Origin: Allobosea sp. WAO
GTDB taxonomy: Bacteria; Pseudomonadota; Alphaproteobacteria; Rhizobiales; Beijerinckiaceae
Length of the DNA: 64,000 bases
NCBI RefSeq assembly: GCF_001509835.1
Contig: NZ_JXTJ01000008.1
Span: 682,001-746,000 of the forward strand
Reading direction: 5' to 3'
Shown: piece after piece, positions 18,288 to 21,511 of the stretch
Layout: each line of letters starts with the position of its first letter
How positions within the stretch are numbered: position 1 is the first letter of the stretch
Translations under genes and position numbers: made by a program
Notes under the pieces: generated by a model
What the model saw: the letters and a program-made list of their open reading frames with translations, nothing else
What the model was told of the DNA's origin: nothing
Database searches by the model: none

Positions 18288-19751
18288 TCAGAGCACCTCG
18301 AACCAGGTCCAGAGACCGAGGTCGAAGCGCTCCAGCACCGTCGAGGAAATCATCCAGCGGCCGGGATTGTCGGCGATGAAGGCGATGTGCAGGCGCTTGC
18401 CTTCGGGAATCTGCACCGTGTCCAGGAAATAGGGTTCCCAGCCATCGTCGAGCGGGTGCAGCAGCCGGAAGCTGTGGCCGTGGACATGGAAGGGCTGCAG
18501 GAAATCGGTCTTGTTGGTGATGCCGATCACCACCGGCGTGCCGCGCCGGACGCTGAGCAGCGGCTTGCCCTGCGGATCGCCCGTGCCGCCGTTGAGGCGC
18601 CATGGCCGGGTCTGGTCGACACCCGAAAGGTTCAGCTTGTTGTCGGCGTCGATCTTGGCGCCGCCTTCGACGGTGATCTCCGCCCGGCTGGCGCTCTGCA
18701 GCTTGACGGCGGCCGGCAGCGTCGGATTCGGCGGCAAGGCCGCGACCGGGCCGGTGGCAACACCTTTCGTCCCGGGCTTGGCGGCCTCGCTGACGAAGCG
18801 AACCAAGGGCATGCCGGGGCCGATCAACGCTGCGACGCTTGCGCTCGCGCCGATCTCCTCCGGCATGTCGAAGATCACGTCGTAGCGTGTGCCGGGCGCG
18901 AAGGGCAGCTGCGCGCGCACCGGCTCGAAGGTCTCGGTCGGCTGACCGTCGACCGCGACGACGAAGGCTTTCAGCCCGTCGAAGCGCAGGCGCATGATTC
19001 GGGCATTGCAGGCATTGGCGAGGCGCAGGCGCACGCGTGCGCCCGGCGGCAGTCCGACCCGTTCCGGAGGGGGCTTGCCGTTGACAGTGAGCCAGCTCCC
19101 GAGCCGGCCGGCCGCGGCACCCTCCTGACCGGTCGCGGGGAAGGGCAGGAGCTTGTGGTCGTCGCCGAGCAGCCAGTCGCCGACCAGCACCGGTAGATCG
19201 AGATCGACTGCCGGCGGTTCTTTCTCCTCCACGACGAGGAGTCCACAGAGTCCGCGCCCGGCCGGCTCGGACGAGCCGCCGAGCAGGAGCGGCCGATAGA
19301 GGTAGCTGCCGGAATCACGCGGCGTCAGCCGGTACTCGAAACGGTCCCCCGGCGCGATCGCCTCCTGGCTGAAGCCACCGACGCCGTCCATCGTCTGGTC
19401 ATGCCGCAGACCGTGCCAGTGCAGCGAGAGCGGCTTTTCCGTGCGGTTGTGCAGGTTGAGCCGCAGCGTCTCGCCGAGCTTCATGCGCAAGGTCGGTCCG
19501 GGGCTGCTGCCGTCAAAGGCCCATACCTCGCTTTCCGTCGCCGGTGCCGGCCGTAGGCGCGTCTTGGCGGGTGCAGCGATCAGCTCGCGCGCTGCCGTGG
19601 CGGGCGCGGGTTCGCTAGCTTGGCCGGACGCCGGCGCCTGAGCACACAGCGGCGCTGCGGCACCCAGTGCGGCGATTCCTGCGATGCCGGCGAGCGCCTG
19701 GCGGCGATTCGGTCCGGCCTGCGGGCCGGTCGCGGGAAGATCGGTTTTCAT
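18288..19751 (-). CDS. Multicopper-oxidase-fold protein lacking copper ligands (SufI/FtsP-like)
   Basis: The protein has 487 residues with three cupredoxin domains. A Tat signal (NRRQALAGIAGIAALG, residues 15-30) sends it to the periplasm. The first His motif is intact (LHWHG, residues 110-114). The second, normally W-x-H-x-H, reads SYLYRPLL (149-156). In the third, QPFHVHGH (419-426), the type 1 His is Gln. The terminal H-C-H-x3-H motif reads MISSTVLER (467-475), with no His or Cys. A working type 1 copper site is therefore not expected. E. coli SufI/FtsP is a known copper-free member that stabilises the divisome; equivalence is inferred. The start at ATG 19751 fits the Tat signal. Confidence 0.88.
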   Translation of the reverse strand: MKTDLPATGPQAGPNRRQALAGIAGIAALGAAAPLCAQAPASGQASEPAPATAARELIAAPAKTRLRPAPATESEVWAFDGSSPGPTLRMKLGETLRLNLHNRTEKPLSLHWHGLRHDQTMDGVGGFSQEAIAPGDRFEYRLTPRDSGSYLYRPLLLGGSSEPAGRGLCGLLVVEEKEPPAVDLDLPVLVGDWLLGDDHKLLPFPATGQEGAAAGRLGSWLTVNGKPPPERVGLPPGARVRLRLANACNARIMRLRFDGLKAFVVAVDGQPTETFEPVRAQLPFAPGTRYDVIFDMPEEIGASASVAALIGPGMPLVRFVSEAAKPGTKGVATGPVAALPPNPTLPAAVKLQSASRAEITVEGGAKIDADNKLNLSGVDQTRPWRLNGGTGDPQGKPLLSVRRGTPVVIGITNKTDFLQPFHVHGHSFRLLHPLDDGWEPYFLDTVQIPEGKRLHIAFIADNPGRWMISSTVLERFDLGLWTWFEVL

Positions 19752-19919: not shown

Positions 19920-20004
19920 GCGGGCGTGGCGGAACTGGTAGACGCAGCGGATTTAGGTTCCGCCGACGCAAGTCGTGGGGGTTCGAGTCCCTTCGCCCGC
20001 ACCA
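19920..20004 (+). tRNA. tRNA-Leu (anticodon TAG)
   Basis: The gene has 85 bases including an encoded CCA. Acceptor arms GCGGGCG and CGCCCGC pair perfectly. The anticodon loop TTTAGGT between GCGGA and TCCGC gives TAG. A long variable arm (class II) and the T-loop GTTCGAGTCC are present, as expected for tRNA-Leu. It lies upstream of tig. Confidence 0.96.
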
Positions 20005-20089
20005 GGATGCGAATTTCGCGAGCGCGGCGGCGGTCATCCGGCGTCGCGCTTTGGACATTGAAGTAACGAGCTGTTGGCGGATCAGAACG

Positions 20090-21511
20090 ATGAACGTGAC
20101 CGAAACCCTGTCCCAGGGCCTCAAGCGCGAATTTCAGGTGGTGCTGAACGCCGCCGACCTGAAGACGAGGCTCGATGACGAACTGCAGAACCTGCAGGGC
20201 AAGGCCAAGATCAACGGCTTCCGCCCCGGCAAGGTCCCTGTCGGCCATCTGCGCCGTCTCTATGGCCGTTCGGTCATGGCCGACGTCGTCCAGAACGCCG
20301 TCAACGAGGCCAACCAGAAGATTGTCGCCGATAACGGCCTGAAGCTCGCCTTCGAGCCGCAGATCAAGTTCCCCGAGAACAAGGACGAGATCGAGGCCGC
20401 GATGGAGGCCAAGGGCGATCTCGCCTTCACGGTCGCCCTCGAGGTGCTGCCGAAGATCGAGCTCGCCGACCTGTCGGACGTCTCGCTGGTCAAGCCGGTC
20501 ACCGAGACCCCCGAGGCCGATGTCGACGCCGCTCTCGAGCGCATGGCCGGCCAGAACCGTCCCTTCGCCAGCAAGGGCGACGACGCCGTGGCGGAGAAGG
20601 GCGATCGCCTGCTGATCTCCTTCACCGGCACGCTCGAAGGCCAGCCCTTCGACGGCGGCACCGGCACCGGCATCCCGCTCGACCTCGGCTCCGGCCAGTT
20701 CATCCCGGGCTTCGAGGACCAGCTCCAGGGCGCCAAGAAGGGCGAGCAGCGCACCGTCGCGGTGACCTTCCCCGAAAACTACACCGCGACCCACCTCGCC
20801 GGTAAGCCGGCCGAGTTCGCCGTCACTGTCGACGACGTGCAGGCCCCGGGCGAACTGACGATCGACGACGAGCTCGCCAAGGGCTTCGGCATGGAGTCGC
20901 TCGATGCGCTGAAGGCCGCGATCCGCGAGCAGCTCGGCCGCGAGCTCGGCGCCCAGTCGCGCCGCAAGCTGAAGAAGAGCCTGCTCGATGCGCTCGACAC
21001 CAAGTACTCCTTCGAGCTGCCCCCGACCCTGGTCGACCAAGAGTTCGGCAGCGTCTGGAGCCAGGTCGAGGCCGACATGAAGGAGGCGAAGAAGAGCTTC
21101 GCCGACGAGAACACCACCGAGGAAGAGGCCCGCGCGGAGTACCGCAAGATCGCCGAGCGCCGCGTGCGCCTGGGTCTCGTGCTGGCCGAGATCGGCGAGC
21201 AGGCCAAGATTCAGATCGCCGACGACGAGGTGACGCAGGCCCTGATCGAGCGTGCCCGCCAGTTCCCGGGCCAGGAGAAGGAAGTCTGGGAGTTCTATCG
21301 CAAGAACCCGCAGGCGCTCGCCGAGATCCGCGCTCCGATCTTCGAGGAGAAGGTCGTCGACCACCTGCTCGGCCAGGTGAAGGTCGAGGACAAGAGCGTC
21401 TCCCGCGAGGAGCTCTATGCCGACGACGAGGCGGAAGGCGAGGCGAAGGCCAAGCCGGCCAAGGCCAAGAAGGCCAAGAAGGCTGCCGCCAGCGACGAGG
21501 CCTCGGCCTGA
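20090..21511 (+). CDS. tig: Trigger factor
   Basis: This 473-residue ribosome-associated chaperone and prolyl isomerase has the ribosome-binding signature GFRPGKVP (near residue 45). It is followed by the FKBP-like domain ([36 protein letters not shown]) and the helical C-terminal chaperone arms. The tail is rich in Lys/Ala (KAKKAKKAA). The ATG at 20090 gives the standard [15 protein letters not shown] start. It heads the protein quality-control block tig-clpP-clpX-lon. Confidence 0.97.

Follow-up and report, generated by a model that had tools for sequence, protein, structure and literature searches.

We examined a gene on the minus strand of a 64,000-nucleotide stretch of the genome of Allobosea sp. 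WAO (the window, contig NZ_JXTJ01000008.1). The encoded protein, P0001, is matched by the Pfam models Cu-oxidase_3, Cu-oxidase and Cu-oxidase_2, each above its gathering cut-off, and with these three cupredoxin domains belongs by fold to the multicopper oxidase (MCO) superfamily. A twin arginine lies near the N terminus, in NRRQALAG (residues 15-22), and arginine fills the Tat-type columns in 98-99% of 154 aligned clade rows described below, in line with the Tat signal that a first-pass annotation had read from the DNA. The gene is transcribed divergently from a neighbor that we take to be tig, followed by genes we take to be clpP, clpX and lon; these names were assigned from the sequences. 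The features are collected in Table 1.

Table 1. Features at the locus, in window coordinates
Feature	Position	Strand	Basis or remark
MCO-fold protein gene (487 aa)	18288..19751	minus	ATG at 19751
Tat-type signal, NRR = residues 15-17	19701..19709	minus	translation
Motif 1 HWHG, residues 111-114; H111 and H113 retained	19410..19421	minus	alignment
Motif 2 SYLYRPLL, residues 149-156; R153 and L155 in place of both type 3 His	19284..19307	minus	
Motif 3 QPFHVHGH, residues 419-426; Gln419 for type 1 His; H422 and H424 retained	18474..18497	minus	
Clade signature loop RLLHPLDDGWEPYF, residues 429-442	18426..18467	minus	alignment
Motif 4 WMISSTVLER, residues 466-475	18327..18356	minus	S, S, T and R at the four ligand positions of His-Cys-His-x3-His
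tRNA-Leu, between gene and tig	19920..20004	plus	
tig (trigger factor), divergent neighbor	20051..21511	plus	kept across clade

When the copper ligands were counted against the standard MCO order, P0001 retained four of 11 (H111, H113, H422 and H424). It therefore lacks the ligand set of an MCO enzyme, which comprises a type 1 Cys-His-His triad and eight trinuclear-site histidines. We assigned site names to its positions from the MCO literature, taking H111 and H422 to be the type 2 ligands; the type 1 site then consists of Gln419, Ser470 and Arg475. In motif 4 (MISSTVLERF, residues 467-476), S469, S470, T471 and R475 stand for His, Cys, His and His, leaving no Cys or His there. The first-pass annotation had already read the second motif as SYLYRPLL, noted Gln at the type 1 His of QPFHVHGH and found neither Cys nor His in MISSTVLER, and all three readings agree with ours. 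Its further claim that only HWHG is intact holds for whole motifs, but motif 3 keeps two histidines, so that four remain in all. The same genome carries a second MCO (L001, G000:C41:83953-84282); it begins with a twin-arginine segment, its motif 4 is of the HCH type, and its best NCBIfam match, CopA, is under the cut-off. Copper oxidation in this organism thus need not depend on the gene studied here.

Among 149 genomes from the family of the window's genome, 128 gave a match, in some cases to a full-ligand MCO, and 21 gave none. A scan of species genomes with peptide patterns, DDGWEPYF among them, gave 57 loci, with Bosea and Microvirga foremost, and the nearest relative (L034, 87% identity) is from a Bosea MAG. 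Forty-eight of the 57 scan loci entered a first alignment, A1, which omitted L039, L041, L047, L049, L052, L057, L079, L082 and L088. A larger alignment, built from these earlier loci and further fetched regions, contains 198 rows; removal of exact duplicates had reduced 235 ORF hits to 183 rows. The loop DD[GE][WV]xP is present in 154 of these rows, a further 36 have 10 or more ligands, and eight belong to neither set. Two of the eight, L009 (DDGWEA) and L143 (DDGYDP), are clade members that the motif regex missed, and they stand outside the 154; six (L001, L171, which is CueO, L172, which is FtsP, L192b, L202b and L206b) are gapped at ligand columns. L088, a partial match, was assigned to no group.

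The full ligand set is absent from 156 of the 198 rows, and these rows share the DDGW loop (154 exactly, two as variants). The type 1 triad is complete in none of the 154: 11 rows retain Cys470, eight retain His419 and 43 retain His475, with Cys470 and His475 occurring together in six, while Gln419 is found in 120 and Ser470 in 115. Between one and eight of the 11 ligands are kept per row, a single row reaching eight and 20 keeping two or fewer. The best-kept positions are H111 (133 rows), H424 (132) and H422 (122), followed by H113 (81). The last is Gln, Arg or another residue in about half of the relatives and undergoes 30 changes on a FastTree phylogeny of 162 rows; it is Gln in the Bosea rows L008, L044, L048 and L049 and in the near relatives L009 and L047, and several Bosea rows read HWQG. 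Even HWHG, the motif called intact in the first-pass annotation, is thus unstable. Since ligand losses recur across the clade, the pattern in P0001 is not a matter of chance. The first-pass annotation had proposed aligning homologues to see if the same substitutions are fixed; the losses are clade-wide, but the ligands have eroded variably, and to an extent that differs between families. In one sub-branch (L102, L104, L108, L122 and kin), motif 4 reads HDDILEHE, with Asp-Asp at the Cys-His positions and flanking histidines, which could form another metal site or an acid site.

To place the clade, we computed a quick IQ-TREE phylogeny of 61 hand-picked rows (30 from the clade, which has 156, 29 of the 36 with full ligands, CueO and FtsP). 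The 30 clade rows group together with an SH-aLRT of 98 and adjoin MCOs of the order that have full ligand sets; none of the 29 full-ligand rows falls inside the group. Homologues with full ligand sets inside the clade would have counted against the first-pass interpretation, and neither the 154 rows nor this tree contains any, with the reservations that six rows pair Cys470 with His475, one keeps eight ligands, and a full-ligand MCO of another family (L204, below) occupies the same position beside tig. E. coli FtsP and CueO, together with L160, fall on the other side, apart from the clade, in a tree that has three long branches (L248, L250 and FtsP) and represents FtsP by a single sequence. 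NG86 comparisons of P0001 with five Bosea copies gave dN/dS ratios of 0.14, 0.22, 0.30, 0.25 and 0.30, values that show purifying selection among the Bosea copies.

The DDGW loop (residues 435-440 of P0001) lies between ligand motifs 3 and 4, within the clade consensus RLL[HD]xxDD[GE]WxPY. Because the 154 rows were selected by the loop, loop counts within them are circular, and because one scan peptide contains DDGWEPYF, that stretch is invariant in A1 partly by construction. For an unbiased recount we used 102 rows recovered by whole-protein search alone, which divide into 89 ligand-poor and 13 full-ligand rows, with no intermediates. D435, D436, G437, R429 and L431 are present in all 89 ligand-poor rows, W438 and P440 in 88 and H432 in 87. 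F275 is also present in 89 of 89, compared to six of the 36 full-ligand rows of the larger alignment. D435, D436, W438 and the loop as a whole are absent from all 36 of these rows, each of which has at least 10 ligands. As judged from these alignments, the loop is the strongest clade-specific constraint in the protein, and alignment with CueO and other MCOs would place the stretch near what was once the type 1 pocket.

When 297 genomes of the order were scanned with a degenerate 24-base DNA pattern for the loop, 31 matched, with one hit for the reversed-pattern control. The matches fell in four families (f1, 10 of 12 genomes; f20, 8 of 12; f36, 9 of 10; f50, 4 of 5), and the other families gave none in 258. 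In a class-wide draw of 385 genomes, four matched, all of them among the five genomes of the window's order, and none of the 380 from outside the order did; the control gave two hits. As the pattern requires exact codons, its absence is weaker evidence than its presence, and tig-linked members without a hit occur in f20 (G212 and G304) and f52 (G199 and G268). Divergent tig-linked members in f52 (L248 and L297) and f36 (L250 and L298-L301) carry a RPLDGLDDGVKPW or RLLDRLDDGWKP loop. Two of these, L248 and L250, were tabulated and have lost most copper ligands.

The gene also has a characteristic address. Across 96 flanked loci, 74 of the 76 that belong to the clade have tig upstream in divergent orientation, compared to one of 19 full-ligand loci, with the partial locus L088 in neither count. 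The two clade exceptions are L071 and L073, the latter with its match at a contig end. Measured between centres, the distance to tig is about 1.7 kb in most loci and 3.7-5.1 kb in L225, L226, L233 and L236. In 30 of the 31 genomes with the DNA pattern, the match is next to tig (29 within 6 kb by coordinates, G393 by reading of the locus); in G065, tig is on another contig. Since the genomes counted are related, these figures are not independent trials. A tRNA-Leu gene is present in all 74 tig-linked clade loci and was counted in 95 of 116 loci. In the stretches fetched for L247, L249, L251-L253, L256, L288-L296 and L302, tig is present and the gene gave no match, that of L296 covering 2.3 kb upstream only. 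The kept address may reflect slow rearrangement around tig rather than function.

One MCO that has its full ligand set but no DDGW loop (L204, 5195-6514 minus, contig C119 of G391, a genome from another family of the order) is likewise divergent from tig, with tRNA-Leu between. L204 first looked ancestral, but it may equally be a coincidence: in a second genome of that genus (G407), the full-ligand MCO (L287) has no tig in the 15 kb fetched, and the L204 protein (row L185), which lacks the loop, falls among full-ligand MCOs in the tree. We also set aside the neighboring genes as a clue to function, as ppx and ppk adjoin the gene in the window and, among the 96 flanked loci, elsewhere only in L034. 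In 31 loci (within L056-L090), none of them named Bosea, a cluster lies about 0.3-2.1 kb downstream on the same strand. Three of the four cluster members scanned are glutamine synthetases by Pfam, and the fourth, the L084 frame, gave a weak Peptidase_C92 match alone. A Pfam scan of nine distinct neighbor frames revealed no division or copper family.

An AlphaFold model built with 49 sequences has the MCO fold (mean pLDDT 87.2, pTM 0.85). Confidence is low over residues 1-50, and the pLDDT falls to 63 in the loop-bearing block 431-440, a drop that may reflect poor modelling rather than exposure. The top match in both Foldseek and VIA-align was 6vow, the MCO of P. thermotolerans (Z 49.3 over 404 residues, 2.4 Å); CueO entries followed at Z about 42 and SufI (2uxt) at 41.0, within a range of 38-49 among the 50 structural matches listed. 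The structure prediction proposed in the first-pass annotation thus confirms the MCO fold, but the ranking of predicted-fold matches does not separate FtsP from CueO.

In MCOs, electrons from the substrate enter at the type 1 site. With that site gone, P0001 would have no entry of this kind, and from its sequence laccase-type oxidase activity is very unlikely. Genes of the clade are probably annotated as multicopper oxidases, and the earlier warning that such a label would mislead is borne out by the missing triad in all 154 rows. The combination of constraint, a kept Tat-type signal and a clade-specific loop favors a protein that is exported in the folded state and serves in binding or as a scaffold. 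We therefore consider, with moderate confidence, that P0001 is an MCO-fold pseudoenzyme and putative periplasmic binding or scaffold protein, and that proteins of the clade probably bind a partner instead of carrying out oxidation chemistry. The course of events may have been as follows. In one lineage of the order, which is the Hyphomicrobiales to judge from the relatives that carry names, a Tat-exported, copper-dependent oxidase would have lost its type 1 site together with most of the trinuclear site, and the MCO fold would have been retained in the periplasm as a folded domain for binding or scaffolding. Export would occur in the folded state without copper, the former substrate face with the DDGW loop might serve as the interaction surface, and Arg153 could help to fill the emptied trinuclear cavity.

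A bolder version of this proposal is that the clade is a second, independently arisen copper-free MCO-fold family in part of the Hyphomicrobiales, in which a new DDGW loop on the former substrate face converted an oxidase into a factor that binds a partner in the periplasm, its gene being kept beside tig through shared regulation with protein-folding genes. We offer it tentatively, as it seems to us rather more doubtful than the binding or scaffold role itself. Among the matches listed for open-licence PMC text, none concerned a copper-free MCO that is linked to tig or comes from the Hyphomicrobiales.

Other explanations deserve weight to differing degrees. The residual histidines might hold a single copper or other metal (His111 and His422, with His113 and His424), making the protein a mononuclear metal protein for storage, sensing or one-metal chemistry. 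Both type 2 histidines are kept in 112 of the 154 rows, and H111, H422 and H424 persist far more often than the ligands of motifs 2 and 4. All four histidines remain in 74 rows, P0001 among them, so that a single metal at the former type 2 position is possible in about half of the members. However, the repeated changes at H113, with Gln in some Bosea rows, and the rows with two or fewer ligands count against it, and we regard this explanation as unlikely, if the strongest of the rivals. That the protein is still a redox enzyme, working through non-canonical ligands, would accord with the fold, the several trinuclear-site histidines and the few rows that pair Cys470 with His475; it is highly improbable given a clade devoid of Cys-His-His triads and a motif 4 in P0001 without Cys or His. 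We give even less credence to a decaying, functionless relic. The uneven erosion across families and the family genomes without a match could be read that way, but the dN/dS ratios, the open frames in several families and the almost invariant loop argue against decay.

The remaining rival is the one nearest to the first-pass annotation, which had looked to SufI/FtsP and inferred a structural or divisome-related factor. P0001 would then be an FtsP equivalent, a septal-ring scaffold for division under stress, either of independent origin or as a distant orthologue. FtsP is reported (PMC2661564) as retaining two of 12 canonical residues, with no metal in the crystals, a septal location and a proposed role as a scaffold. 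P0001 resembles it in fold, in ligand loss and in its Tat signal, characters that are shared but do not prove orthology to FtsP. Yet the two proteins are only 24% identical, below the values for CueO (26%) and two intact MCOs of the same order (L194, 38%; L183, 35%), and P0001 scores 61.7 bits with the NCBIfam FtsP model against an equivalog cut-off of 581 (L056, 50.2; L085, 29.5). P0001 does not group with FtsP in the tree, although FtsP is there a single sequence on a long branch, and the structural match to SufI falls below that to 6vow. The proposed kinship is thus not borne out, nothing in this analysis tied the gene to division, and on this analogy a division role seems to us improbable, slightly more so than a mononuclear metal site.

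We return to the favored reading of a pseudoenzyme with a putative binding or scaffold role and compare it with known systems. The copper-tolerance MCOs CueO and CopA have the same fold as P0001, which has lost the type 1 and most type 3 ligands; CopA and CueO are its best NCBIfam models, with 127.6 and 114.7 bits, far under the respective cut-offs of 478.95 and 525. The full-ligand MCOs L194 and L183 also have three cupredoxin domains but, unlike P0001, hold the ligand positions and lack the DDGW loop. In 6vow, too, the ligand positions are present by alignment, unlike in P0001, and 18 of the 19 flanked full-ligand loci, unlike those of the clade, do not adjoin tig. E. coli FtsP (SufI), a Tat substrate with an MCO fold reported to be copper-free, is a parallel to a ligand-poor protein with a Tat-type signal. 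In a five-sequence alignment, Gln and Ser take the places of its type 1 His and Cys, as they do in P0001; however, it lacks the DDGW loop, and the neighbors of ftsP in E. coli differ from tig-clp. From the sequences, the common Gln and Ser look like parallel loss. With its signature, its kept gene address and its graded ligand loss, the clade offers a natural series for the passage from metalloenzyme to binding protein and, beside FtsP, a test case for copper-free reuse of the MCO fold.
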